From: a virus
DNA length: 32,458 bases
IMG/VR virus record: IMGVR_UViG_3300032053_004743
Coordinates: 1 to 32,458 of that record
Reading direction: 5' to 3' (one strand)
The notes beneath the pieces were generated by a model. That model was given only the letters and a program-made list of their open reading frames with translations. It was not told the origin of the DNA and made no database searches. Position numbers and translations under genes: made by a program. Below are positions 2,509 to 29,358 of the stretch, piece by piece. The number at the start of each line of letters is the position of its first letter. Position 1 is the stretch's first letter.

Positions 2509-5500
2509 TTAGTATTTGATCTTGTCACTAATATCACCACTCCATTTACTTCCATTTCCCACAAACATTTCTGACTCAACAACTTCCCCATCACCTAGAT
2601 ACTTTGATAATCTATTAAATTCTTTTTCTTTATTTACCTTCATACTACCAATTTCACCACTAGCTATATCTCTTAATATACCTTCCTGATCTAATATTTT
2701 TCGCAATTCTCGAATATCACTCCCAGGATACCCCTTGTCCTCAAGGAATTCCTCTATTACATCTAGGGCTTCCATGGGGTCTCCACTATTAATAGCTTGT
2801 CGGAACCTATTTCCATCTAAGTCACCCCATAATGGTGACTCCGTATGCCCTTCCCGTACAAGGGAAGATAGTTCTGTGACCTCTGAGGCGGTCCAATTTC
2901 CATATTTCCCTTTATGGTCCCAAATATCAGATTCTGTCTTAATTTTTGCCGGGTCTTTTTTCCCACTTGGACCTGTTCCACCACCCGCACTATTTTTATC
3001 ACTAGACCCTTCAGCAGCAGGTGGCATAGAACCACCTGGAGCCCCACCAGGCATTTCCCCAGCACCTTCACCTGGCATTCCTTCACCAGGTTCACCCATA
3101 GGTGGTGGAGGGGAGAGTAGGCCGCCTCCACCACCCCCAGCTCCACCAGGTGCCGCTCCCGGCTGCATCTCTGGTGGAATATACTCAACCATCTTTCGTT
3201 CAAAAGCTTGCTCTTCCTTAATCTTAAGTACCTCTTCTTCATACTTTCGATTTACAGCTGCATACTTAGTAGTCTTAGAGAATTTGATACCCAATCCTTC
3301 CAATGCTGTCATTGCTTGGACTAGTTCTGTATTAACAGTATGATCTAACTGCTTCTCCCACTCCATCTTAGGTACAATATACCGATTCTCTTGTTCAAGC
3401 TCGTGCTGAGAACGCTTAATACGATAACGATGTGTTAACTCACCTGGACGAGGTTTAATCCAACCATTTATTTTTGCTATTGGCTTAAAGAATTTGGGGA
3501 TAAGCCATGAATTAACAAAGAAATTACGCACAGCTTTCATGCGTTGTAGAAACACAGATAAACCAGTGTATGAACTGGCGTAACTCACCTCTCCATGCAT
3601 AAAACTCTTACTAATTCCAAGAGCAATCAGTTTAATACGTTCAATGACTTCATTATGCTGACTAATATTCATTACACGTTCTTGAACACCAACTAATTCA
3701 AATTTAATACCATAGTGGTACACCAACCAACTAGCAGGATCCATCTCAGCTTGGGCTAGCAATTGAAGTAAACGTTGCTCGTGCTCTGGAGATGGGATCC
3801 AACCAGTCTGAGGATTCCCCAAGAGGGCTGCCTTCAGGGGTGCCGCTTGTCGACGTGCCGTCTGAATACTATTATAGGTTCCAAGTCCATAGGCTTGATA
3901 TGAATGATCACCACTAACTGTTATGTTATATACACAGTCATTATATTTAACTATATCTACACTAGTAATTGGTACATAAATAAAATTATCATCCATCCAC
4001 GTGCGACAGGGAATAGCCTCATTATACCCTTCTCTCTCACGTGGTGAATTTTTACCTAAAACTATCTTCCATAGAGTATCTAATGATGGCCCCTGTATAG
4101 ATAATACCCATTGATCTTTACGTTTCTTACCATCTGACTGTTTACGTTTTGAATATGGAACATAACTAATAGCAGCAAATATACCACAATGAGCACATAT
4201 TTGACGAATTTGATATATAAGCTGTTGTGAAACACTCGAACACTTAATTTGTAAAGTATGGCTGACCCTATTTTTTGATTTTCTAAACGAGCCGTCACCG
4301 GCAAAATATCCTTTTAATAATTCTTTCTTTAATTTAATTGGCCAAGACATAATCTCTTTTGTTAATTTCTTGTATTCAGCATATTCACCACCATCAGCTC
4401 GTAACATATTAGCAATTGATAAGCTAGATTTTCTATGAGCAGATACTGTACAGCCATTACGTTTGATATCCTGATATATATGACCAACAGTATTGAATTT
4501 CTTCAATATCCTAGCAATATCAAACGCCAATGTATTTAATTCGTCTAAACATAAGCTGAAATTTAATCCTCTACCCCAAGAAAGATTCTTAGAACTTCCT
4601 TCTGCCAAATAATATCCTAATAATCTAGCATATTCTATAGTTTTGTTAGTTTTTATTTCCTTGAATTTTCTAGGCAACATTAAATAATCGCCGGGTCTTA
4701 CATCCTCAGCCTTTAGCTGCTTATAAGGTTCATACCATTCTGGAACCCTTACTTGCCATCGATTGGTTCCTTGCCCCTTCCATTTAATTACATTTTTATA
4801 TTTACCTTCACCAAACCCACTACTATGTCCACCAGCAAATGATGCCCCACCATGCATTTCCATACCACAACCACACAAACATGTACGTGGTAATGCAAAT
4901 ACCGGGTATTTATGATTTTTAGTTGATTCTAAGGCTATAGTCCCCTGTGCTTTTACAATAACAATTTCTTTAGGAAAATCTTCTACCCACACGGCATCAA
5001 CAGTAGATTCATAACCATGTCTATCCAACACTTTATCATCAACTGATATATCACATATTGATTTAACAGAACCATCACTCATAGTGACTTTAGTGTTCTT
5101 AGTGTAACAGGCATTATATACGCCGTCTTCGTACATCAGTATTCGCCACATCCTACTAATAACACTTGTACCACGTGTATCATACGGATGCAGACGACGC
5201 GGAAGAAATGTACAATTAACTGGACTAAGTGGTATATTTTGACGAGCAATTAAACGTGAGATTAATTCCGGTGGCATCTGTTCTCGAACACGACGTAACA
5301 ACGTATTATTAGAAGTTAAAACTGCACGAAGCCGATCATCTGGAATAAATTCAATAATTGGATCCATCTTAATAAATGGTGCATCAATTACTTCAAGCTG
5401 ATCTGGATTATGTAAAGCTATATAAGACCATACCCCCTTAGTTTCATCGAACATACAATGTGGGACACATTCTCCAATAACCATAAATTCCTTAACCATA

Positions 5501-6042
5501 TACTCAAGAATTTTTAATAATTCAACGTCTTTACACATCTCCTCATAAGCTTCTCTAATTTCACCAGTTATGCCTTCACCAGATAATTGAAATTCTGACC
5601 AAGGCATCATACTATACAGGTCTAAACAAGAACTAATAACTGGGTCAAGTTTATAAAACAAACGCCAATAACGATTGGCTAAGATACGGTGCACAGGATA
5701 GTGCATCCTGTCCGGTGACTCGTATTCTGGCATGTAGGGGCGTTGTGGTGTTACCATTGCCCCACCACTTGTTAATCCACCACCTCCACCATATCCAACA
5801 CCACCACCCCAGTCTGCTCGTTTTTGAGTTCTAGGATCTAATTCAGCACCTTGAGGTAATATATCTTCAAAGAAATTACGAGATGTCGATCCATGTTTAG
5901 ATGCTAAACCTGGAACAAAAGACTCAAATTTAGAAGCTATATCCTCAACAGTTTGTGGTGTTAAACCATGGGGCATAGGATCCTTATTAGCCTGTAGCCT
6001 AGGGTCTCCATATTTATTCCCTAGTATAATTTTATTTGACAT
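2509..6042 (-). CDS. Portal protein precursor, interrupted by an intein
   Basis: The 1177-residue precursor should splice to a 764-residue portal, the ring at the capsid vertex through which DNA is packaged and ejected. N-extein: an unstructured Gly-rich start (residues 78-95), then HYPVHRILANRYWRLFYKLD and further portal-like alpha/beta sequence to residue 311. C-extein: resumes with SIQTARRQAAPLKAALLGNP, a helical stretch typical of large-phage portal clip and stem regions, with conserved features such as the segment ending LGISKSFMHGEVSYASS. The tail is a low-complexity Pro/Gly linker (about 990-1060) followed by a charged C-terminal segment. The intein occupies residues 312-724. The gene starts 6 bases after the zinc-ribbon gene stop, with a poor ribosome site. 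Portal assignment rests on sequence character plus its position near terminase; I am fairly but not fully sure. Confidence 0.75.
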   Translation of the reverse strand: MSNKIILGNKYGDPRLQANKDPMPHGLTPQTVEDIASKFESFVPGLASKHGSTSRNFFEDILPQGAELDPRTQKRADWGGGVGYGGGGGLTSGGAMVTPQRPYMPEYESPDRMHYPVHRILANRYWRLFYKLDPVISSCLDLYSMMPWSEFQLSGEGITGEIREAYEEMCKDVELLKILEYMVKEFMVIGECVPHCMFDETKGVWSYIALHNPDQLEVIDAPFIKMDPIIEFIPDDRLRAVLTSNNTLLRRVREQMPPELISRLIARQNIPLSPVNCTFLPRRLHPYDTRGTSVISRMWRILMYEDGVYNACYTKNTKVTMSDGSVKSICDISVDDKVLDRHGYESTVDAVWVEDFPKEIVIVKAQGTIALESTKNHKYPVFALPRTCLCGCGMEMHGGASFAGGHSSGFGEGKYKNVIKWKGQGTNRWQVRVPEWYEPYKQLKAEDVRPGDYLMLPRKFKEIKTNKTIEYARLLGYYLAEGSSKNLSWGRGLNFSLCLDELNTLAFDIARILKKFNTVGHIYQDIKRNGCTVSAHRKSSLSIANMLRADGGEYAEYKKLTKEIMSWPIKLKKELLKGYFAGDGSFRKSKNRVSHTLQIKCSSVSQQLIYQIRQICAHCGIFAAISYVPYSKRKQSDGKKRKDQWVLSIQGPSLDTLWKIVLGKNSPREREGYNEAIPCRTWMDDNFIYVPITSVDIVKYNDCVYNITVSGDHSYQAYGLGTYNSIQTARRQAAPLKAALLGNPQTGWIPSPEHEQRLLQLLAQAEMDPASWLVYHYGIKFELVGVQERVMNISQHNEVIERIKLIALGISKSFMHGEVSYASSYTGLSVFLQRMKAVRNFFVNSWLIPKFFKPIAKINGWIKPRPGELTHRYRIKRSQHELEQENRYIVPKMEWEKQLDHTVNTELVQAMTALEGLGIKFSKTTKYAAVNRKYEEEVLKIKEEQAFERKMVEYIPPEMQPGAAPGGAGGGGGGLLSPPPPMGEPGEGMPGEGAGEMPGGAPGGSMPPAAEGSSDKNSAGGGTGPSGKKDPAKIKTESDIWDHKGKYGNWTASEVTELSSLVREGHTESPLWGDLDGNRFRQAINSGDPMEALDVIEEFLEDKGYPGSDIRELRKILDQEGILRDIASGEIGSMKVNKEKEFNRLSKYLGDGEVVESEMFVGNGSKWSGDISDKIKY
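3871..5109 (-). other. Portal intein with LAGLIDADG homing endonuclease (413 aa)
   Basis: This is a protein-splicing element inside the portal, with junctions MYEDGVYNA/CYTKNTKVTM and GLGTYN/SIQTARR. It has Cys1, a TKNH block B motif near intein residues 63-66, two LAGLIDADG helices (LLGYYLAEG, about 163-171, and LLKGYFAGDG, about 264-273) and a C-terminal block CVYNITVSGDHSYQAYGLG ending in Asn, followed by Ser+1. The penultimate residue is Tyr instead of the usual His. Residues 77-95 carry CLCGCG...FAGGH, a metal-binding-like motif also seen in phage homing endonucleases. The endonuclease half would cut intein-free portal alleles. Splicing itself is inferred from intact motifs. Confidence 0.92.
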
Positions 6043-6048
6043 ATTTCA

Positions 6049-6324
6049 CTATTTAGGTTTTTGCATAGTGCCATCAATTATTTCTACTGGTTCATGTTCT
6101 GGTATATAGATTGTTTGGTGTTTAACCCACACCCAGGTTATTTTAACATTATCGCACCCATGAGGGCAACGTAGATCACCAATATTACTCTCAACCATAA
6201 ACATGCGATTACAATTCGCACATTGACCCATTAACCAATCACCTGCAACTATGCAGGTTGTTCCACCATCATCGTCAGGATATTCTATTACATCAGGCTT
6301 GCGCCTTAAGACGCTTTTGGTCAT
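6049..6324 (-). CDS. Small zinc-ribbon protein, function unknown
   Basis: A 91-residue protein with two cysteine pairs, CANC (residues 35-38) and CPHGC (53-57), separated by a short beta-type stretch. This arrangement is typical of a zinc ribbon. It also has an acidic patch (EYPDDDGG) and an aromatic, beta-rich region (KITWVWVKHQTIYIP). It sits between the multi-enzyme protein gene and the portal gene, 6 bases before the portal start, so it is probably co-expressed with the packaging genes. A ribosome site (AGGAAAG) is present but lies unusually far (about 14 bases) from the ATG. I do not recognise a family. It could be a portal- or terminase-associated adaptor, but nothing in the sequence proves this. 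Confidence 0.65.
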   Translation of the reverse strand: MTKSVLRRKPDVIEYPDDDGGTTCIVAGDWLMGQCANCNRMFMVESNIGDLRCPHGCDNVKITWVWVKHQTIYIPEHEPVEIIDGTMQKPK

Positions 6325-6389: not shown

Positions 6390-9300
6390 TTATGCATGAC
6401 GATACTTCAAACGTTCTTGATCTGCTGGACGAGAAATATCTCTGCTCTCTCTAGTCTCTAGAGGATCAATTTCGTTTTTCATAAAGCTATCGTCTATTGA
6501 GCCTGGGAAAGCTATACCAGATTCTTTATCAGAATGTGGTGCCTCTTCTACCCAATGGTCCTTAGTATGAGGAAACACATAAGAACAAGCATCACGACCA
6601 TCTTCTAAGGTGATTAATATACGCTCGTATGGTTGTTCAAAAGCATCCACTTCGGCCAAACATTCATCACTTACTTGGTATAATTCTCCAATAATTGAGT
6701 TTATACCACCTTCAACTAATCCTGGACTATCTTCTGCTGTAATCAATTCATATTTAGGCATAGTTTTAATAGCACCTAAAAATTTAGCGTTCTCAAGAAA
6801 ATGATGATTTGGTTCACCTTTTCGGAGTGTGCCATAGACAAAAAGATAGTTTGACTGCGGGGCATCAGCAGTTGGACCACCAATACCACCAACCTGCGAT
6901 GTACCAGGCCCTACATAGTCTGATTTTGTTTTCTTATTGATTTTGGGATCAAATGTATCAGCCTCTTTATCATTCCCAACCAAAGCCGTAAAAAAACCAG
7001 ACCCATCTGGTAGTTTATGCATTTTTTGACTATTCATGTGTAACACTTGTGTGCCAGTTGGACCCACATCTTTAATTTTCTTTTCAGGAAATATCATCTT
7101 ATGGACTGGTATTTCACCATACTGATCTTTTACTTCCTTCATAAACTTGTTATTCATTAACATTAGTCTTACTATATTGTTAGAGAGATCTTTTATATCA
7201 ACATTAATATCGGTATACTTAGCTAACCACTGCATAGTAGATTGATTATCCATATCATTAATAATTTTTAATGCCATGTCAGCATATGCAGCCTGCTTCA
7301 ACATGGCTACCATCTGCATATCTCCAGCATTATCTAATTTAATAATACGAGGATCACCCATACCCCAAATTTCAATTTCATTTACTATCCATGATCCAGA
7401 TGGATTCACGTTATCAAATTTAGATTCCTCACCAGGATCAACGTATTCAATAGTTACATGACCTTTAAATGGTCTATCAGGATTCTTTAATTTAAATCCG
7501 TCGTCCAACAATCTTTGTTTAATTACGTCGTGTAATCCTGTTAGAAATTCACTTTTAATTGGACTATGAAGTATTCGTTGATCATGTTGATTGGTGAATT
7601 CGTCTGGTGGAAGAAGCTCAATTTCAAATGGTCCAGTTCGTACCAATTCTTCTCTAACAATCTGTTCTAATCTATCAAATTGACCTTCTGGTACATCACC
7701 AATATAAAGCAAGGTCATGTGTGGATCTGAATCATCTTCACCAGCACGTCCTTTTATTGGATATTGTTTAGCTAATTCTGGTGGAAGTGGAATGAATAAT
7801 CCAACTTTTTCACCAGATTTTTTACCGGCCATATATTTAAGACCGGCAGACATTTTAAATGATTTTTTAGTTTGTTCTGCCTTCTTTTCTTCAGATGGAA
7901 TTAGATCTTCCTGTCCACGTCTATCTTCAGGCTCGCCATACAGCGCATTGACCAATTTTTCTATTGGCACCTCTCTAATATCTCCAAACATATACCCTGG
8001 GAGATGCTTAAGATACATATCAACAGCTTCTTCTTCAGACTGCGCACCGAGTACGACTTTATCCTCGTCATATGATTGATCATCTTTTAATTGTTCAATT
8101 ATATATGCTATTTCAGAGTCTCCATCCATTAAATAAACATCTAAACCTTCAGTATCTGCTCCTTCAATACCACTAGCGAACCCGTAATCGCACTTCATAT
8201 GTGTTACATAAGTATCATCACCTTTATATGATCTAATAGAACCTTTAGGCCATTCAACATCAATCTTAATACCTTTATAATTTTTCTTATCTTTTACTTC
8301 ATCCTCGGCCACTTTACGAATTTCTCTATCCCATTTTTGAGTGTAATCACTACCAGCTGTTAATTCGTCCAATAGCTCTTTTGGTATTCCATAATAATGA
8401 CTAAGAAAATCCATCATCTTACCAGTTGAATGGACTTGGTTAAGACCAATACTAAATGTTGCCATATCAGTGTGAATATTACCAGTTGGTATTAGTTTAC
8501 CCATAGTTGACCTTATATCATAAACTAATGCTGCCCAATCTGGATCACCTGGTGCAAAGGCAGGATCGCCTGAAATTAATAACCAATTCTTATATACATT
8601 TTCTTTAAGGAAAAGAATGGCTTTCTTAAGTAGACCGGCTAAAAGGGTTCTCATTTCACTAACAATAGCCTGACCCTCTTCTCCTAAACCTTCTTCTACT
8701 TTCTTATCTTCTAATTTTGAAATCTTATAGTAATATTCATAAATAGTTATTAAATCTTGAGCAGTTAATAAAGTATCAGCCTTCTTTATCAGCCTCCCCT
8801 TAATCTCATTTAAAGCAGTAACCCAATCACCATCAAATGGAACATTACGGTCATCTAGATATACGTGAGCCGGGAGCTTCTTCCCTACATAAATTTCAGA
8901 ATAAGGAATTCCATTAGTGTCTAATTCGGTACTTATTGCTTCTTTTAAATCATCCTCTTGTTGTTTATTTTTGGTAAAATATTGTCTAGCAGTATAGATA
9001 GACACTTTAACATTTTCATTGATTAGTTCTTGTAAAGCTTCCATGGCCCCTTTAATTGGTTTTCCAAACAGATGCTTGCCACTTTTATCCTGATAAATCC
9101 CTTCGGAAGGGGGTTCAAGGATTGTTCCGTCGAGATCGATTGCGACCCAAGAATAGTCTGGTCCTTTGTTTGGGTTAATGTCTTCGTATTTTTGGGCGTG
9201 GAGGATGATGTTATGTTTTTCTTTATTGGCATCTTCATACCTTGGGTTTGGTTGTCCAATGCCATCAGTATATGGAGGATAGACGGCTTCAGACAATGGA

Positions 9301-9683
9301 TCTATATCCTCCTCACCCATTTTATCTGGTGGATAGCCCCCCTCAAATTGGTTTACACTTTTATATGAATCTTCCCACATACCATGTTGGGTATTCACTC
9401 GCTGATTCGGTTTGGAGGTGTGTCGTTCAGTAGTAAGATCTGTTAGTGTTTGACCATATTCTGCCTGTCTAGGCATGTGGTAAAGTGATTCCATCGACCC
9501 ATTTTCATTATCAGATTGTTCTCCTGCCGGATACTCGGAAGGAAATGATAATTGTTCTGCCCCACCAACATCTTCAGTTTCTTTATCTATTATATTTACC
9601 GCTGATTCTTTATCACCTAATTCTTTGGATAGTTTCTTTAGTTTCCGCAAATCACTATCTATCCAACTTCTTCTTTTCTTCAT
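6390..9683 (-). CDS. Multi-enzyme protein: HAD phosphatase, PPase-like, 2H phosphoesterase, GGCT-like
   Basis: A 1097-residue protein with four recognisable enzyme domains on one chain. Residues 1-175 are disordered and acidic. Residues 178-295 are a HAD hydrolase (DLDGT at 183-187, T231 of YTAR, DD at 277-278). Residues 300-455 are a helical linker region. Residues 470-585 match the inorganic-pyrophosphatase-like domain known from phage polyvalent proteins (GADTEGLDVYLMDG, then DEDKVVLGAQSEEEA). Residues 625-775 are a 2H phosphoesterase (2'-5' RNA ligase-like) with both catalytic HxT motifs, H655-M-T and H742-V-T. Residues 946-1040 are a gamma-glutamylcyclotransferase (AIG2)-like fold (FVYGTLRKGE, with E1016 in DAFEQPYE as the probable catalytic Glu). 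A ribosome site (GGGTGA) precedes the ATG. It lies between terminase and portal, so a virion or ejected protein is likely, but this is inference. Domain calls are strong; the substrates are unknown. Confidence 0.85.
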   Translation of the reverse strand: MKKRRSWIDSDLRKLKKLSKELGDKESAVNIIDKETEDVGGAEQLSFPSEYPAGEQSDNENGSMESLYHMPRQAEYGQTLTDLTTERHTSKPNQRVNTQHGMWEDSYKSVNQFEGGYPPDKMGEEDIDPLSEAVYPPYTDGIGQPNPRYEDANKEKHNIILHAQKYEDINPNKGPDYSWVAIDLDGTILEPPSEGIYQDKSGKHLFGKPIKGAMEALQELINENVKVSIYTARQYFTKNKQQEDDLKEAISTELDTNGIPYSEIYVGKKLPAHVYLDDRNVPFDGDWVTALNEIKGRLIKKADTLLTAQDLITIYEYYYKISKLEDKKVEEGLGEEGQAIVSEMRTLLAGLLKKAILFLKENVYKNWLLISGDPAFAPGDPDWAALVYDIRSTMGKLIPTGNIHTDMATFSIGLNQVHSTGKMMDFLSHYYGIPKELLDELTAGSDYTQKWDREIRKVAEDEVKDKKNYKGIKIDVEWPKGSIRSYKGDDTYVTHMKCDYGFASGIEGADTEGLDVYLMDGDSEIAYIIEQLKDDQSYDEDKVVLGAQSEEEAVDMYLKHLPGYMFGDIREVPIEKLVNALYGEPEDRRGQEDLIPSEEKKAEQTKKSFKMSAGLKYMAGKKSGEKVGLFIPLPPELAKQYPIKGRAGEDDSDPHMTLLYIGDVPEGQFDRLEQIVREELVRTGPFEIELLPPDEFTNQHDQRILHSPIKSEFLTGLHDVIKQRLLDDGFKLKNPDRPFKGHVTIEYVDPGEESKFDNVNPSGSWIVNEIEIWGMGDPRIIKLDNAGDMQMVAMLKQAAYADMALKIINDMDNQSTMQWLAKYTDINVDIKDLSNNIVRLMLMNNKFMKEVKDQYGEIPVHKMIFPEKKIKDVGPTGTQVLHMNSQKMHKLPDGSGFFTALVGNDKEADTFDPKINKKTKSDYVGPGTSQVGGIGGPTADAPQSNYLFVYGTLRKGEPNHHFLENAKFLGAIKTMPKYELITAEDSPGLVEGGINSIIGELYQVSDECLAEVDAFEQPYERILITLEDGRDACSYVFPHTKDHWVEEAPHSDKESGIAFPGSIDDSFMKNEIDPLETRESRDISRPADQERLKYRHA

Positions 9684-9725: not shown

Positions 9726-12700
9726 TTACCATCGTCTACCACCAGCCCCCATTAAACCAGATCTTGCAGGATTAAATATAGAACCACCATTAGAAAAGCT
9801 CCAAGATTGGCTCATTACCTCTTCAGATTTAAGCCTTGACTGACGACTACGAATTTTTTCTCCACTGGGTCTAATTTGACTATTCTGAAGCATCTGGTGT
9901 AAGTGGACAAGTACAACTGCTACGTCATCAGAATTATAACCCCGTCGTTTACCTTTTTGTGGATTTATTACTCTCTTATCATCCACTGATCGTTCTAGTC
10001 GCCCTAATTCATATAATCCAACCGCTGCTGCTGATTTAAATGGTGGATCTAATCTATCATCACCGGGTTCTTTAGGTAATAATCTAATTCTTCCCATTTG
10101 TCCATCAGCAACAAATTTAATATAGTCATCTGGTCTAATTGACTTCTGTTCAGCTCGAATACCTAAATTACGAATTTGTTGTATTAGTGTAACACTATTC
10201 CAACGGTCAAATTCAATTTGGGCGATCTTTTGATGCTTCATCTGAAAAGCGATTAAATCAATACATGAGTCAAACCATACTTCCATACCATTACTTGGTA
10301 ATATTCTAAGGACCCAATCTATTACAGATATAAACTCTTGATTGTCACCCTCTTGTTTAATTTCAAGATGTCCACAAGCACCAGTGAATGAGTCGAAATT
10401 TTGTCCCGCATCATAACATATGAATCGAGAAGCATCACGGGATAATTGACACTCTACCATTTGAGCTTTGTGATATCTTTGACCTGTTTTATCAGTAAAT
10501 GGAATAATTTCTATCTTTGCTGTTGGTTGAAGGGCAATGTCAACAGCTCGTTCTTCAAATTTACCAGGATCAACAATTAGAGGATTAGCTGCTAATGGTG
10601 GTTTAGCACCAAAATCACGCTCAGTACCTACTGGATCCTTTTCGTATGCTTCATTGTAGTATTCACGTTTCTCATCTGGGTTGAAATCCCAAGTAGCATA
10701 ATGCATTGCATACATACCCTTAATCTTTGTTGACTGATACATCAGTTCCATAGATTTATCATCAACTGAGATTGGGGATGATACTGATACAATTAAGCCA
10801 AGCCATGTTAATAAATCACGATTAATAGTCGCAGATCGGATTGTACGAAGTGAGTTCTCCATTACGCGGTATGCTTCTTCAGCACCCATGGATGATTCTG
10901 ATTGTTTAAACCGCGACAATTCATCAATAAATGACGCAATTCGTGTACGACCTGCTAGACCAGACGAATTGGAGTTCTTAGAATTAAACTTTGTATTTAA
11001 AAAACCATTCTCAATTTCTTTGGTTGTTTCTTGGTATTTCCATCCTTCCATGCCGGTTGTTATATGTTGTTCTTTTTGTTTCTTTTTTAACCATTCAACA
11101 CATCGATTAAACCAGGGCGAATTAATTCTAGCATTTCTATAGTGTGCCCATATTGTATCATTAGATTGAACCTCAGTAGACGCAATAAATGTAACTTCAA
11201 ATGGTGGTTTCAATCCAAAATAAGTTGATAATTTTCCATCTTCTTGACTTAGTGCAAGAGTCATTAAACGGTGTTCAACATAAGCACCAACTAACGCAGC
11301 AGTTACAGTCTTGCCACTATTATGGTTAAGAACAGAATTAGCTACAAATGAATGTGTCCCAGGCACATGTAAGTCACCCATTGGTACTTCTGGACCATCT
11401 TCAATCTTAACAATGGGTAAGAACCGAGATTCTTCTCTAGATAAACGCTCTAGTAGCTGTAAATCTTCTTGTCTAAAAGTTTTATTTGTAAAATACTCAA
11501 TCAATCTCTCGTTAATATCAACATTGTCTGATAATAATTTGTAGTATGTTGATTCAATTGAGGTATTTTGATACTCGGTAATATAATCAAGTATTTGTTT
11601 TAATCGTGGTCTATATATAGACTTATATTCCCCAGCTTGTATGTGAGCTATAGTATCTGCCATCCCAGATTCGGTCTTACATATAATTTTATTAAAGATA
11701 GCCTTAATTAACGGGATAGCGTCAAATATTTTAGTTCGCTCGCCAGTAGTTTTCAAATATAATTGGTAAAGTTCATTATACTCATTTGTGACGTCAAAAC
11801 CAGCAAAATAATTGAGTAAATCAGACTTCTTAACAACCCTAGCATGTAATTGGTCCAATAGACTGAACTCAATATGATTATTACGATATTCCTTCAGGTA
11901 CTTAATCAAATTTACCACTAAAAATCTGGATGCAGTGTCATATTGTCCACTTATAACATTATTAATATGATATGACACAGGAATACTAATACTATTATGT
12001 ATTCTACTTAATACTGGTCGTAGTCCAGGAATAAATGAATCTTGAATTTTGGTGTTTTTCACTATCTCAATACATTCACCTAGAGCTTTTTGTTTTCTTG
12101 CAGAATAAAAACCAATCTTGTTGGCATATTTGATAATATTATCACCATATACACGGACAGCATAGCAATCATGATCAAATTTTTCTTTAGAAGAGAACTT
12201 ACGAGACTTAGAAGCACTAATAGTCGCATCTATCCCAAGATTCCATAATATTTGTTGAGTTTCTAATGCCAATTGCTTAGATACAGTATACGATGACACT
12301 GTTGGTTTATTAGACTCTTTCTCAATGGCTGCTGTACCATCACCCTCAAAATAGGCACGCAGAAATGCACAAATTATAGGTTCAGATGCTGACCATAATG
12401 CTTCTGGGACACACTTTGTTTTAGCTACTGATTCTTTAACCCCAAGTGCTTTTAAAAATCTACGAACACCAGCGTGATTAACATCTATATCAAAAACTGC
12501 ATTATGTAATATTCTAGCACTCTTAACGTTGAATAACCTATGATTCAAAGCAACAAAATGCTGCAGTGTTTCTTCTTCAGAGTTAAAGAATGTAAAACAT
12601 AGGTCTGTTGATACATCGCCCTCCGATATCAAATACCCGATAAGTGCTGCTAGATCTTCTGACCACTCTGTCGGAGTGGTGTACACAACTTTACCAGCGT

Positions 12701-13505
12701 ATTTAATATTATTAATTGCTGATGTTGTTACATTATTGAACGTATCCACACCATACCATTTAGGTGCAACTCGACATTCAACATACTCACCAATCTTTAA
12801 TTCATTGGTCTTATGCCATCCCCACTCACCATTATGGAATCCATATAATGGATGAACTGGACTAACTACATGCTCTATACCACCAGCTAATGTAATCTTT
12901 TTGGATGGTAAATTACCGGCATAGTACACATCAGAAACCGTCTCCCAGCCATTCTCTCCAAATACTTGTAAGTTATTAAGAGGATAGAATTGATCAACTT
13001 TAGGATTAGGTGGCAATAGATCTTTTAACCTAATCAACCCATAATTAGTATATAACTGAACATTTGTACAGTAGCAGCGCATCCCACATAGAAGGTTGAA
13101 TTGGTTATATCTTTCTATTAACTTATCTTTAATTAATTCGTGTCTGGTTGTCCCACATTTTGGACACACATCATCTTCACATTTGTCTGACCAAGTAAGT
13201 AGTTCTTCAGATTGTAAATAGGTTTTAGTTTTACCCCAGCAATCAATATCTTCTGGCTTTTGTGAATTACAGATTGGACAACGAAGCTGAAATAAATCCC
13301 TAATAACTTGATATTGCCTTACGTATTTATAAACTGAAGGAACATTTAAAAGCTGTGGCGAAGAAATAAATTCAATGATATTGGGTGCTGGGACTTTAAG
13401 ATAATCCCGTTCAATATCTTTTTCAGCTATGGGGATGGTATTAAGTAGAGGTGCTACTATAGATTCAATAGACGTACGAAAATCTTGCGACGTTTTCCCA
13501 CTCAA
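9726..13505 (-). CDS. terL: Terminase large subunit precursor, interrupted by an intein
   Basis: The 1259-residue precursor splices to a 673-residue packaging motor. The N-extein (1-143) carries cysteine pairs CPIC (76-79) and CPKC (114-117), a zinc-ribbon-like extension, and ends in LLCGMR. The C-extein starts SGKT, so splicing rebuilds the Walker A loop GMRSGKT. Walker B is IASFIDEL near 857-863. The RNase H-like nuclease follows, with acidic residues in FICYDAG (D1032), MEVWFDS (D1079) and NSDDVAVV (D1193/1194). The start appears to be TTG, preceded by AAGGTGG that overlaps the stop region of the upstream gene; no ATG is well placed. TerL cuts concatemers and pumps DNA through the portal, which is encoded two genes further on. 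I am very confident of the family. Confidence 0.93.
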   Translation of the reverse strand: MSGKTSQDFRTSIESIVAPLLNTIPIAEKDIERDYLKVPAPNIIEFISSPQLLNVPSVYKYVRQYQVIRDLFQLRCPICNSQKPEDIDCWGKTKTYLQSEELLTWSDKCEDDVCPKCGTTRHELIKDKLIERYNQFNLLCGMRCYCTNVQLYTNYGLIRLKDLLPPNPKVDQFYPLNNLQVFGENGWETVSDVYYAGNLPSKKITLAGGIEHVVSPVHPLYGFHNGEWGWHKTNELKIGEYVECRVAPKWYGVDTFNNVTTSAINNIKYAGKVVYTTPTEWSEDLAALIGYLISEGDVSTDLCFTFFNSEEETLQHFVALNHRLFNVKSARILHNAVFDIDVNHAGVRRFLKALGVKESVAKTKCVPEALWSASEPIICAFLRAYFEGDGTAAIEKESNKPTVSSYTVSKQLALETQQILWNLGIDATISASKSRKFSSKEKFDHDCYAVRVYGDNIIKYANKIGFYSARKQKALGECIEIVKNTKIQDSFIPGLRPVLSRIHNSISIPVSYHINNVISGQYDTASRFLVVNLIKYLKEYRNNHIEFSLLDQLHARVVKKSDLLNYFAGFDVTNEYNELYQLYLKTTGERTKIFDAIPLIKAIFNKIICKTESGMADTIAHIQAGEYKSIYRPRLKQILDYITEYQNTSIESTYYKLLSDNVDINERLIEYFTNKTFRQEDLQLLERLSREESRFLPIVKIEDGPEVPMGDLHVPGTHSFVANSVLNHNSGKTVTAALVGAYVEHRLMTLALSQEDGKLSTYFGLKPPFEVTFIASTEVQSNDTIWAHYRNARINSPWFNRCVEWLKKKQKEQHITTGMEGWKYQETTKEIENGFLNTKFNSKNSNSSGLAGRTRIASFIDELSRFKQSESSMGAEEAYRVMENSLRTIRSATINRDLLTWLGLIVSVSSPISVDDKSMELMYQSTKIKGMYAMHYATWDFNPDEKREYYNEAYEKDPVGTERDFGAKPPLAANPLIVDPGKFEERAVDIALQPTAKIEIIPFTDKTGQRYHKAQMVECQLSRDASRFICYDAGQNFDSFTGACGHLEIKQEGDNQEFISVIDWVLRILPSNGMEVWFDSCIDLIAFQMKHQKIAQIEFDRWNSVTLIQQIRNLGIRAEQKSIRPDDYIKFVADGQMGRIRLLPKEPGDDRLDPPFKSAAAVGLYELGRLERSVDDKRVINPQKGKRRGYNSDDVAVVLVHLHQMLQNSQIRPSGEKIRSRQSRLKSEEVMSQSWSFSNGGSIFNPARSGLMGAGGRRW
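11319..13076 (-). other. TerL intein with LAGLIDADG endonuclease (586 aa), inside Walker A
   Basis: Splice junctions are LLCGMR/CYCTNVQLYT and VANSVLNHN/SGKT. Cys1, an SPVH block B motif (intein residues 72-75), a canonical HN terminus and Ser+1 are all present. The LAGLIDADG motifs are LIGYLISEG (145-153) and LRAYFEGDG (239-247). Between the endonuclease and the C-terminal splicing block lies an extra, mostly helical region of about 200 residues (345-550), making this intein clearly longer than common bifunctional ones. Insertion exactly between GMR and SGKT means no ATPase activity before splicing. The distance from Cys1 to the glycine of block A (13 residues) matches the portal intein. Confidence 0.95.
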
Positions 13506-15215: not shown

Positions 15216-16943
15216 TTACATGCTGTAAATAAGAAGATCATTTCCAAGTAATTCATAGGACTTGATATTATCCTCAAAACCAATCTGTGTCAGCTTCTCA
15301 CCCAGGGCCTTTTTAAATTTATCTGTATACACATTCTCTTTAATTAAATCATTTTGCTCTTGACTAAAGCCAAGACTATTAATCCAATTACTGATAAGTT
15401 TATCATCGATAATAGCAACGGCTCTATACTTATCATCTTCTTTACCCTGTTTCCACTTCGGCTTGAGCTTATTATATAATTGTGTCATGCCATCTACAAG
15501 TTTATCAAAATCTACTGATGATTCTACAGTTACCTTCTGGGCGGAAGGTCGAATAGCATATGGGTGATCTTCTTCACGGAAAGTGATAGGATCATATCCA
15601 ATTTGTTGTTCAAAATGAGATTGATCATACTGAGTTACAGATGGATCAGCAGGATTAATAGGATTATAATTTATAGCGTCTTCACCACCACCAATTAACG
15701 GTACATCAGAATGCCGAAATCTATCAGTTGGATTTCGCTTATCTACCTCACCAGGTTGTTCACGATAAGTAACTGGTTTAACTTTATAATTTTCTTGAGC
15801 ATTTTTCTTTGATGGTCTATTCTTATAATCTTCTTGAGCATTTTTCTTTGATGGTCGATTCTTATAATCTTCTACCATCTTAGTATATTTTTCAGGTCCC
15901 ATATGTTTTTTCATATATTCATCATATTCTTCATCAGATAAATGATCTAAATCTGGAACTTCGGTTGGTTGACTTTGTGGCTCATCTTCTTTTAGATATG
16001 GAAACAAACGAATTACATCTTGAAAAAGCGGGTCTTCTTTACCTGCCTCTGTAATAGTCCGAAGTAAATCATATGTCATAGCCCCATCTTTATCAGATGT
16101 AATCCTAGATTTTTGTGGAGCTGACCATGATGTATTAAGTAATCGTTCTATCTCAGAACGACCGGCTCGCTTCTTATTAGTAAGTGGGGTTTGAATAGTA
16201 TCTCCAACTCCGATTCTATTTTTCCCACACCATCCACCATTAATTTCAATCACATCTGTACAACCACAAGACCAAGAACCTGCCTGTCGTGGCTGAACAT
16301 CTGAAATTATTTTAGAAATTCTATTGTCATCCACAAATATAATATCAATGGGGAATACAACATCTCCCATATGAAAAGTAGCAACGCGTCGGCAGTATTG
16401 AGGAAACCAAAGTCCATGATCATCTGAAAGATGATCATATGCTTGTAATCCACTGGCTTGTTGTTTGGGCGTTACAGCAACATCACATGTAATATTTTTA
16501 TCCTTAATAGCAATTTTAATATTAGCCCGTTCTGATTTAACCCAGTGTCCTGCTTTACGCTGTAAATTCTGTTGTGTCATCATCTGCTGCATCTGTAATG
16601 TTTGCTGATTTGTAATATCCTGTTGTTGATCTAATTGTTGTTGTTCTTCTTCCTCTTTTTGCTCATATTCTTCCATGCGGTCTAAATTCCCCATTGGATC
16701 AGCACCCGCTGGAATTTTAGGAGCAGAAATCTGTGCCAGCCTATCTGACAAAGAAGCAATAGCCTGCTTTAATTGCTGAAGGGCAGATAGTTCTTTATCT
16801 TTTGACTGCTTGTCCAATTCAATAGTTCTAATTTGTTCCTCTATTACCTTCTTTTGTTGATCTGTCATGGGAGTAGGTGATATAGTCTGTACGGCTGGTG
16901 TAACCGATTTAACTGGCTCGTCAATTTGAGAAACTCTCTTCAT
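15216..16943 (-). CDS. DUF192-domain protein with Gln-rich coiled coil
   Basis: A 575-residue protein. Residues 26-128 form a charged, then Gln-rich, coiled-coil-like region. Residues about 150-250 match the DUF192 fold: VAVTPKQQASGLQ, GLWFPQY, FPIDIIFVDD and the closing IGVGDTIQTP are the usual conserved points. DUF192 proteins are small beta-rich proteins of poorly known function found free in bacteria and archaea; here the domain is embedded in a long chain. Downstream are an acidic region, a short tandem repeat (15789-15866), and a C-terminal domain (about 480-575) predicted alpha/beta. The ATG overlaps the preceding gene's TAA (TAATG), indicating translational coupling. A structural or packaged role is inferred from context only. 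Confidence 0.7.
   Translation of the reverse strand: MKRVSQIDEPVKSVTPAVQTISPTPMTDQQKKVIEEQIRTIELDKQSKDKELSALQQLKQAIASLSDRLAQISAPKIPAGADPMGNLDRMEEYEQKEEEEQQQLDQQQDITNQQTLQMQQMMTQQNLQRKAGHWVKSERANIKIAIKDKNITCDVAVTPKQQASGLQAYDHLSDDHGLWFPQYCRRVATFHMGDVVFPIDIIFVDDNRISKIISDVQPRQAGSWSCGCTDVIEINGGWCGKNRIGVGDTIQTPLTNKKRAGRSEIERLLNTSWSAPQKSRITSDKDGAMTYDLLRTITEAGKEDPLFQDVIRLFPYLKEDEPQSQPTEVPDLDHLSDEEYDEYMKKHMGPEKYTKMVEDYKNRPSKKNAQEDYKNRPSKKNAQENYKVKPVTYREQPGEVDKRNPTDRFRHSDVPLIGGGEDAINYNPINPADPSVTQYDQSHFEQQIGYDPITFREEDHPYAIRPSAQKVTVESSVDFDKLVDGMTQLYNKLKPKWKQGKEDDKYRAVAIIDDKLISNWINSLGFSQEQNDLIKENVYTDKFKKALGEKLTQIGFEDNIKSYELLGNDLLIYSM
15789..15866 (-). repeat. Two tandem 39-bp in-frame repeats
   Basis: Two nearly identical 13-codon units encode YKNRPSKKNAQED and YKNRPSKKNAQEN, followed by a partial third unit beginning YKVKP. 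They lie in the linker of the DUF192-domain protein. This is a recent in-frame duplication within a disordered, basic segment. Confidence 0.9.
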
Positions 16944-27262: not shown

Positions 27263-29056
27263 CTATTCAGCTGGTTGCTTGGATAAAATCTTTGCTTTTT
27301 CATGCATGTCTATTTCTAATTTATCTATCTTTGGATTCCACTCATGTATTTTACCATCATCTGTACGGACCATAATAGTTTTAGACGGTGTAACTTCTTG
27401 AATTACACCTGTTACTGCCTGTGATCTACCTGGTCTACCAACATCAGGCATGTCTTCTTTAGGATCCGCGTTTCGTACTCTATCACCAACACCCACCCAG
27501 AATTGCTTACCTTTACCCTGTCTGGCCCTAAATGCATCCCAAACTTGAACTCTCTCCCGGATTTTTTGTTTCTCAACCGGGCGACGAGGTTCATCAGGCT
27601 CACCAATTCCCTCTAATGAGAGGTGTTCTGGTTCTTGAAATGGAGTTTTAACTAATGGTGCCGGTGTCCTCTTAGCAACCTCTAATTCAGACTCCTCTAC
27701 ACCCTCGGGTTCAAGACCCTCTAGTGAAAGGTGATCAGGTTCTTCTCCCTCTTCCTCTTCTTCTTCATCTATTTCTTCATACTTTTTCAGTGTTTGTTCT
27801 TCAGGCTCTTCTTGTTTAATTTCTTCTTCATCTTCAAATGGAGCCTCAACAGTTTGTCCTTCTTGATACTCAGTAACATCGTCAGAAAACAGGTCGCCTT
27901 CGACTCTCCTAGCACGTTCATCTACACTTAAACCTGCAACTTGTTCAACTACATACTTAGCAAGTTGTGGCTTGGATTTAACAAGCATCACAAATTCAGC
28001 AGGATACTTCAAATATGCTGTAACTAAGAAATCTACTGAATCACCAATAGTCTCAAATTCACTAAACTTCTTGACAAGAAGTTCAAAAACCTTCATATCA
28101 ACTTCGGGTTCTTCAACTTCTTCAACTGGTTCTTCAGTTATTTGTTGCGTCCAACCAAGTTCAGGACTCTCAGCATATGCTGGGACAGTTGATACTTCTG
28201 ATTCTTCAGTAGTTGGGGCTCGTTTCCTAACAGGTTCATATAAACCACTAAGTTCTGTTTCGCCTGCTGGCTCAATTTTCTCTATCATTTCACTAAATGA
28301 TGGCTCGGCTTCTGATTTATCTAGTTCTGGCTCTGAGATTGGTAGTGGGAAAATATCCTTATAAAGAGACTGCCATTGTTCTGGAGTAGTTTTAGCTAGC
28401 TCTTCATAGAGTGTTTTAAATTTATAAAGCTCATATTTATTCTTTTGATCTTCTCGTTTAGGCCATAGATCTTGGGTTATATGATCTTCAATAGCCTCAA
28501 GAGCTATATTCTTTGCATCTTCAACAGAGTGCATCTTGCCAATCCTGGCCGGTAACAATTTATTCTTAAGCCATGCCAGATTTTGTTCCCAAGAAATAGC
28601 AAGTTTTCTGTTAGCTGTAACTACTACAACAACTGATTCTGGCTCTTCTCGCGGCTCAATCATTCGCATTAAATCAGACATATGCTCATGTTCTTCAGAT
28701 AAAATATCACCAATATCATTTTGAAGACCATGGATACCAATCGAAAGTTCCATAGCCTCATGGTATAAATTAGCACCATCTATTTCAGATTGAAGTAGCC
28801 ACTTAATTGATTTATTTAAATCACCTTCGAATTGCTCAACTGGTGGAACACTGGTTGGTGGGATACCACCAAGATCAGTAACCCAACGAATAATTAGTCT
28901 AGCATGCTCAAGTTCATTGGCCGCATGTTCACTAAAATGTTCCTCAACAGTATCTGTATGCGGACCATAATGCAAAGCAGAAAGAAATGTGTAACGCATC
29001 CACTGTGCGTGCTCTGCTTGTATTATATTACAGAGTAGTTCAGTTAAATTACTCAT
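27263..29056 (-). CDS. Bacterioferritin-like di-iron domain fused to long acidic tail and SH3-like end
   Basis: A 597-residue protein using the ATG at 29056 (TGATG overlap with the upstream stop; a GTG one codon earlier is less likely). Residues 1-135 form a four-helix ferritin-like bundle with a full set of di-iron ligands: E15, E48 and H51 (ELEH), E91, E122 and H125 (EHEH). The spacing closely follows E. coli bacterioferritin (E18, E51, H54, E94, E127, H130), but the residue equivalent to the haem-binding Met52 is Leu, so haem binding is not expected. A second helical part (about 150-215) and an extremely Glu-rich linker (about 220-500) follow, and an SH3-like beta domain (about 505-580, WVGVGDRVRNADPKED) ends the chain. 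Iron oxidation or peroxide protection is the family role; here it is untested. Confidence 0.8.
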   Translation of the reverse strand: MSNLTELLCNIIQAEHAQWMRYTFLSALHYGPHTDTVEEHFSEHAANELEHARLIIRWVTDLGGIPPTSVPPVEQFEGDLNKSIKWLLQSEIDGANLYHEAMELSIGIHGLQNDIGDILSEEHEHMSDLMRMIEPREEPESVVVVVTANRKLAISWEQNLAWLKNKLLPARIGKMHSVEDAKNIALEAIEDHITQDLWPKREDQKNKYELYKFKTLYEELAKTTPEQWQSLYKDIFPLPISEPELDKSEAEPSFSEMIEKIEPAGETELSGLYEPVRKRAPTTEESEVSTVPAYAESPELGWTQQITEEPVEEVEEPEVDMKVFELLVKKFSEFETIGDSVDFLVTAYLKYPAEFVMLVKSKPQLAKYVVEQVAGLSVDERARRVEGDLFSDDVTEYQEGQTVEAPFEDEEEIKQEEPEEQTLKKYEEIDEEEEEEGEEPDHLSLEGLEPEGVEESELEVAKRTPAPLVKTPFQEPEHLSLEGIGEPDEPRRPVEKQKIRERVQVWDAFRARQGKGKQFWVGVGDRVRNADPKEDMPDVGRPGRSQAVTGVIQEVTPSKTIMVRTDDGKIHEWNPKIDKLEIDMHEKAKILSKQPAE

Positions 29057-29358
29057 CACTCTTTATCCATAAACATCTTATGCACAGCTGATGCAGTTAC
29101 CAAATATGCTATTTTCTTGTAGGCATTTTGTCCTACAAAATCAACAATCTCATTACGCGAAACACATTTAGCAGCTCGTCGATCTTCCGGATCGATCTTG
29201 TCTTCTAAACCTTGGTTAAATGAAGAAATGGCCTGAGTAAGTAACATGGCCCAAATTTCATCTTTATGTTTTGGATCTCTGTTGTATGACTGTGCAATTT
29301 TTGATTGATTAAAATTGTTAAAATACCAACTAACTACTTGATTTCTTAAATTTGACAT
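29056..29358 (-). CDS. Small helical protein, first gene of the leftward block
   Basis: A 100-residue protein, mostly helical, with no recognised family. It starts MSNLRNQVVSWYFNNFNQSK and ends in KKIAYLVTASAVHKMF. It is the promoter-proximal gene of the leftward structural block, and its stop overlaps the ferritin-like start (TGATG). A ribosome site (TAGGAT) lies about 7 bases before the ATG. The gap to the divergent plus-strand gene (29359-29468) should hold the block's promoter, but I could not pick out a convincing minus-strand -10/-35 pair. Confidence 0.6.
   Translation of the reverse strand: MSNLRNQVVSWYFNNFNQSKIAQSYNRDPKHKDEIWAMLLTQAISSFNQGLEDKIDPEDRRAAKCVSRNEIVDFVGQNAYKKIAYLVTASAVHKMFMDKE

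Follow-up and report, generated by a model that had tools for sequence, protein, structure and literature searches.

A conserved frame around variable enzyme domains in the gene between terminase and portal of a tailed-phage lineage

Results

A long gene lies between terminase and portal

The window, by which we mean the whole stretch of 32,458 nucleotides analysed here, is a 32-kb fragment from an uncultured virus. Its minus strand carries at positions 6390-9683 an open reading frame of 1097 aa that begins with ATG, contains no internal stop and is immediately preceded by a plausible, GGGTGA-like ribosome site. The large terminase subunit TerL is encoded upstream (9726-13505, minus strand) and the portal protein downstream (2509-6042, minus strand), both confirmed by profiles, and a small 91-aa ORF with a weak zinc-ribbon match (6049-6324, minus strand) separates the long gene from the portal gene.

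Both large neighbours carry LAGLIDADG inteins. The one in TerL lies inside the Walker A motif, with GMR and SGKT around the insert, at a site where TerL of phage Rctr197k reads GQRAGKS without an intein. Long TerL genes also occur in loci L004 and L014 and may hold inteins, and the portal ORFs of several relatives (L013, L015, L022, L023, L024, L030) reach 1106-1990 aa, suggesting that inteins are common in the packaging genes of this lineage.

Four enzyme domains on one chain

Profile searches placed four domains on the 1097-residue protein in the order HAD phosphatase, inorganic pyrophosphatase (InPase, PF18823), 2H phosphoesterase and gamma-glutamylcyclotransferase (GGCT/AIG2). A sequence-only reading of this DNA had proposed a single chain between TerL and portal with four enzyme-type domains, all intact, and profiles, folds and residues agree with it; the residues that it named (183-187, 277-278, H655/H742, E1016) were all found correct on inspection of the sequence. 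Its description of the chain as four nucleotide-type enzymes stands as to the four enzyme domains and fails as to their type, because GGCT acts on gamma-glutamyl compounds and is no nucleotide enzyme, and HAD need not act on nucleotides.

When all relatives were aligned globally, the 2H half of the protein came out in the wrong place; this alignment was discarded, and the two halves were modelled separately with AlphaFold2. The HAD, 2H and helical (residues 305-459) domains were modelled confidently, InPase was partly resolved and GGCT came out poorly, its part of the model being of low confidence and excluded from use. Structure prediction, which the earlier reading had suggested for each domain, was informative for HAD and 2H, and gave a poor InPase core and a low-confidence GGCT.

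The HAD domain (residues 177-301; 8781-9155, minus strand) matches phrog_1238 at 3.8e-15, its Pfam match (0.015) falling under the cut-off, and its model aligns with HAD phosphatases at a Z of about 10 in a fold search. All motifs of the superfamily are present on a HAD fold: D183/D185/T187 of the DxDGT signature (DLDGT at residues 183-187), T231, K269 and D277, next to D278. Diverse relatives show no or almost no variation at D183, D185, T187, R233, K269 and D277, and have either D or N at position 278. Since the matches of the domain include BT0820, the phage arabinose-diphosphate phosphatase AfhF, deoxyribonucleotidases and T4 Pnkp, the substrate could be a sugar phosphate, a nucleotide or a 3' end.

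The InPase domain (residues 464-579; 7947-8294, minus strand) scores 78.6 bits against PF18823 (5e-22; cut-off 26.8). Its acidic residues D510/E512/D515 and D539/E540, with K542 close by, are conserved in the alignment, with occasional D-to-E exchanges. Inorganic pyrophosphatases were absent from the Foldseek and VIA-align PDB matches, with a poorly modelled core, and a search of a viral structure library listed one InPase-domain protein; the assignment to this family is made from sequence.

In the 2H domain (residues 623-777; 7353-7817, minus strand), residues 652-773 match 2_5_RNA_ligase2 (PF13563; 4.7e-11, 43.4 bits, cut-off 27), and the bilobed 2H fold carries two HxT motifs with H655 (HMT) and H742 (HVT). 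The model superimposes on the RNA 2',3'-cyclic phosphodiesterase drCPDase with Z 16.9 (rmsd 3.4, 164 residues) and on E. coli LigT with Z 14.2, compared with Z 8.6-9.3 for the anti-CBASS nuclease Acb1, with which it shares the 2H fold and two catalytic histidines. The window domain is thus nearer to LigT/CPDase than to Acb1, a statement about the fold from which the substrate cannot be read. The window protein gave no match to the Acb1 family profile PF23474 at any E up to 1; the 2H domain of L015 matches this profile at 5.6e-6, slightly under the cut-off. Both HxT motifs are retained in L007, L015 and L022, the last of which shares 72% identity with the window over the 2H region.

The GGCT/AIG2-like domain (residues 942-1042; 6558-6860, minus strand) exceeds the cut-off of GGACT (PF06094; residues 947-1039, 5.9e-19, 69.2 bits against 22.8), matches YtfP (1xhs) by phmmer and contains the YGTLR motif, here YGTLRKG, together with the catalytic E1016, which is kept in L022 and L030.

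Two helical parts lie between these enzymes. The domain at residues 305-459 (8307-8771, minus strand), of unknown family, was modelled with pLDDT mostly about 75-87, and fold searches in which it was embedded in a larger query returned nothing for it; it is single in the window and in L009 and apparently duplicated in tandem in L022 (4892-7297). Part of a helical segment following the 2H domain (residues about 786-855; 7119-7328, minus strand) is also found in L027 and L008.

Enzyme content changes while the position is kept

A search of viral contigs with the 1097-aa protein as single query found no relative. Relatives were obtained by using profiles of TerL and portal to scan viral contigs, complemented by one scan of genome contigs, which yielded 35 distinct loci, the window included, each with TerL and portal and with duplicates removed. 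The genome-collection scan contributed a single contig, from an Actinomycetes MAG (L053), too little for a host assignment. The order TerL-cargo-portal is common to the window, Rctr197k and the 33 other loci, and the interval usually holds one ORF, of a size ranging from <150 to 2175 aa.

This survey of domain order in related phages, another proposal of the sequence-only reading, revealed that enzyme content varies at a constant place: HAD was detected in 19 of the 35 loci, InPase in 10, 2H in 6 and GGCT in 3, and further cargo types comprise GNAT, ferritin-like, DUF7178 and ParB-like domains. All four enzymes of the window occur together only there and in L022, its closest relative, where the set is spread over two chains, N-HAD-InPase and 2H-GGCT, with an HNH endonuclease ORF between them. 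Among the 35 loci, the combination that had been singled out as striking is thus confined to the window as one chain, but not as a set. On a portal tree of 24 rows the window and L022 group at 97/97; on the 35-row tree L060, which has InPase only, stands beside L022 at 83/92, and the minimum number of domain changes is 7 for HAD, 2 for InPase, 6 for 2H and 3 for GGCT. As far as these sequences tell, the TerL-portal gene behaves as a hypervariable locus that keeps its ends and exchanges the enzymes lying between them. The four-domain set captures this rapidly changing gene in one of its states, and is more informative in that role than as a unique chain.

Several individual loci deserve mention. 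The HNH ORF of L022 spans 7294-8094, and the edge sequence GEPEDRRG..DLVPSEE is found on both its sides. A ParB-like region of L022 was read by eye, below the support of a Pfam cut-off, and a PHROG search of L015 gave a weak match to ParB. DUF7178 (PF23802, 6e-28) is the cargo in L004 (6108-9263), and in L064 (3857-6442) the TerL-portal gene joins ferritin to InPase on a single chain.

Rctr197k, the closest GenBank genome, comes from a DAMO/AAA enrichment. Over the shared parts, identity to the window proteins is 43% for its TerL and 52% for its portal. Its gp045 (KX853510) likewise sits between TerL and portal and has the HAD domain in common (44% identity), but is 2175 aa long and carries GNAT and other cargo, without InPase, 2H or GGCT; the N-module and C-tail profiles described below did not detect end modules in it. 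Zincin-like and PRTase-like regions of gp045 were by-eye readings that reached no Pfam cut-off and were not retained. A second Rctr197k protein, of 2039 aa, has a 2H match, and its gene lies three genes away from one whose annotation notes similarity to a structural protein.

Conserved ends frame the variable middle

The two ends of the window protein recur on genes with very different middles. At the N-terminus a module of residues 5-183 (9135-9671, minus strand) is predicted to be disordered, and at the C-terminus a short tail (residues 1059-1095; 6399-6509, minus strand) has the consensus RxxRxIxRPxxxExxxY. Profiles were built from the first 190 and the last 42 residues of window-clade sequences only and compared in a single uniterated run with the 1978 ORFs of all loci. 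At E<=1 the N module was matched in 26 loci and the C tail in 18, every time between TerL and portal, and neither profile had a match outside this interval among the 1978 ORFs; a control with reversed sequences gave nothing better than 0.65. Iterated profiles extended the counts to 28 of the 35 loci for the N module and 20 for the C tail. In nearly all proteins the tail is at the C-terminus or a few residues from it, L015 extending about 80 residues further. The N module is split into two halves by a 2H domain in L053 and L054 and holds insertions in L011 and L022, and the L055 protein, of 196 aa, consists essentially of both ends with no enzyme detected.

Because the ends are confined to the TerL-portal gene, the middles differ and L055 presents the ends alone, the gene amounts to a small conserved frame that receives enzyme insertions. 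We regard this frame as the main new result. AlphaFold2 assigns low pLDDT to both ends of the window protein, so that N module and C tail are probably both disordered. Their restriction to this one gene, a point against the packaging reading discussed below, means that no general tag is shared by several head proteins.

Comparison with known systems

In the polyvalent proteins of phages described by Iyer et al. 2017 (PMC5512222), unrelated enzyme domains share one chain encoded among the late genes of terminase-portal phages. Both InPase and 2H figure among these domains, the former proposed to remove PPi or nucleotide signals and the latter to act as RNases or to degrade signals. The window protein likewise joins unrelated enzyme activities (HAD, InPase, 2H and GGCT) and is encoded, as in its relatives, near the virion genes of a terminase-portal phage. 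Its membership of the polyvalent type, already put forward in the sequence-only reading, is therefore well backed by profile matches, folds and the comparison of genomes. It differs in its HAD and GGCT domains, the words 'haloacid' and 'cyclotransferase' being absent from the text of that paper, and in the conserved ends around variable cargo at a fixed locus, which the sections covered do not describe.

The T4 internal proteins (IPI and others; PMC3012670) offer an analogy for the ends, in that one conserved targeting sequence is attached to diverse counter-defence cargo; the window lineage similarly has conserved end sequences on otherwise different proteins, a likeness of design with no homology claimed. 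The T4 proteins are small with a short targeting sequence, which in this class steers loading into the head and is cleaved by the prohead protease, whereas the window chain is long, multi-enzyme, tagged at both ends and a putative virion protein.

InPase domains are also found in virion proteins of other phages. Gp020 of Cellulophaga phage phi13:1, a head-gene product recorded in the virion by MS/MS, combines in a domain scan InPase with a Clp-type protease and not with HAD, 2H or GGCT. Portal chain 9b41_L (gp19, 765 aa) has an InPase-like match in its C-terminal part, at 639-746. The 765-residue gp19 portal of Pa193, of which 9b41 is presumably the entry, has no density for residues 529-765 (PMC11042391), so that the position of this domain is not visible.

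Discussion

Our favoured explanation, which we consider reasonably probable, is that the window gene belongs to a tailed-phage lineage and encodes a cargo protein of the polyvalent type, whose ends load the chain into the head, whose intervening enzymes are gained and lost, and which is ejected with the DNA. We infer packaging and ejection from the position kept between TerL and portal, from the ends that flank a variable middle and from the presence of InPase in virion proteins of other phages. The N module and the C tail would act as anchors or loading tags, the phage lineage would exchange the enzyme domains between them, and the chain would enter the cell with the DNA on infection and act early. 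There the 2H domain might cut cyclic or 2'-5' phosphodiesters, in damaged RNA ends or defence signals; HAD might take phosphate off a sugar, a nucleotide or a 3' end; InPase might break PPi or a nucleotide phosphoanhydride; and GGCT might cyclise gamma-glutamyl compounds. The idea that such a chain rewrites nucleotide or signalling pools of the host would suit 2H, and perhaps InPase and HAD, but does not fit GGCT. An integrated RNA end-repair pathway combining 2H with a HAD 3'-phosphatase was set aside, as there is no ligase here.

Binding to TerL or portal inside the producing cell would suit the ends equally well; the whole protein might then be a cofactor of assembly or packaging, with ends that bind TerL, portal or scaffold and enzymes that act on the spot, for instance in clearing pyrophosphate or trimming ends, and stay out of the virion. 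The restriction of the ends to a gene always beside TerL and portal agrees with this, and minimal enzyme-free forms such as L055 suggest a core role that is not enzymatic. GGCT, GNAT and ferritin-like domains, however, come and go without a plausible role in packaging, each enzyme is lacking in part of the family, so that packaging seems able to do without the enzymes as such, and other phages have the same domains in virion proteins; we therefore judge such a cofactor unlikely.

We give still less credit to an ordinary cytosolic chain of metabolic or counter-defence enzymes, made during infection and placed among late genes by chance. Infected cells do produce T4 Acb1, itself a 2H enzyme (PMC9117128), and GGCT is commonly carried by phages as a stand-alone gene, but the fixed place in 35 loci and the conserved ends would be left unexplained. 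A decaying or accidental fusion devoid of joint function, to which the rarity of GGCT (3/35), the fast turnover of domain content and the split chain of L022 might point, seems highly improbable in view of the intact catalytic residues in all four domains and of a 2H region so close to its L022 counterpart, in which both HxT motifs persist.

Within the favoured reading of an injected cargo protein, a more specific version can be tentatively entertained, although we would not yet bet on it: the two ends would form a two-ended virion-loading signal, the chassis of the lineage, any enzyme inserted between or within them would be carried to the next host, and the TerL-portal gene would be an evolving slot for injected effectors. 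If the ends do load the chain into the head, the content of this single, constantly placed gene would tell for each phage which enzymes its lineage finds worth injecting, and would provide a search handle for new counter-defence enzymes. The injection proposal for polyvalent proteins would also become directly testable, with defined sequences to remove.

Some other genes of the window may be noted. A 575-aa protein encoded upstream of TerL (15216-16943) contains a DUF192 domain (3.2e-19), and its counterpart Rctr197k_042 has, by eye, a similar sequence. The product of 27263-29059 starts with a ferritin-like domain (PF00210, 1.4e-11). Long low-complexity repeats at 94-2229 read as collagen-like (Gly-x-y type) on the minus strand; this is probably a fibre gene, and the plus-strand ORFs listed there are likely spurious.
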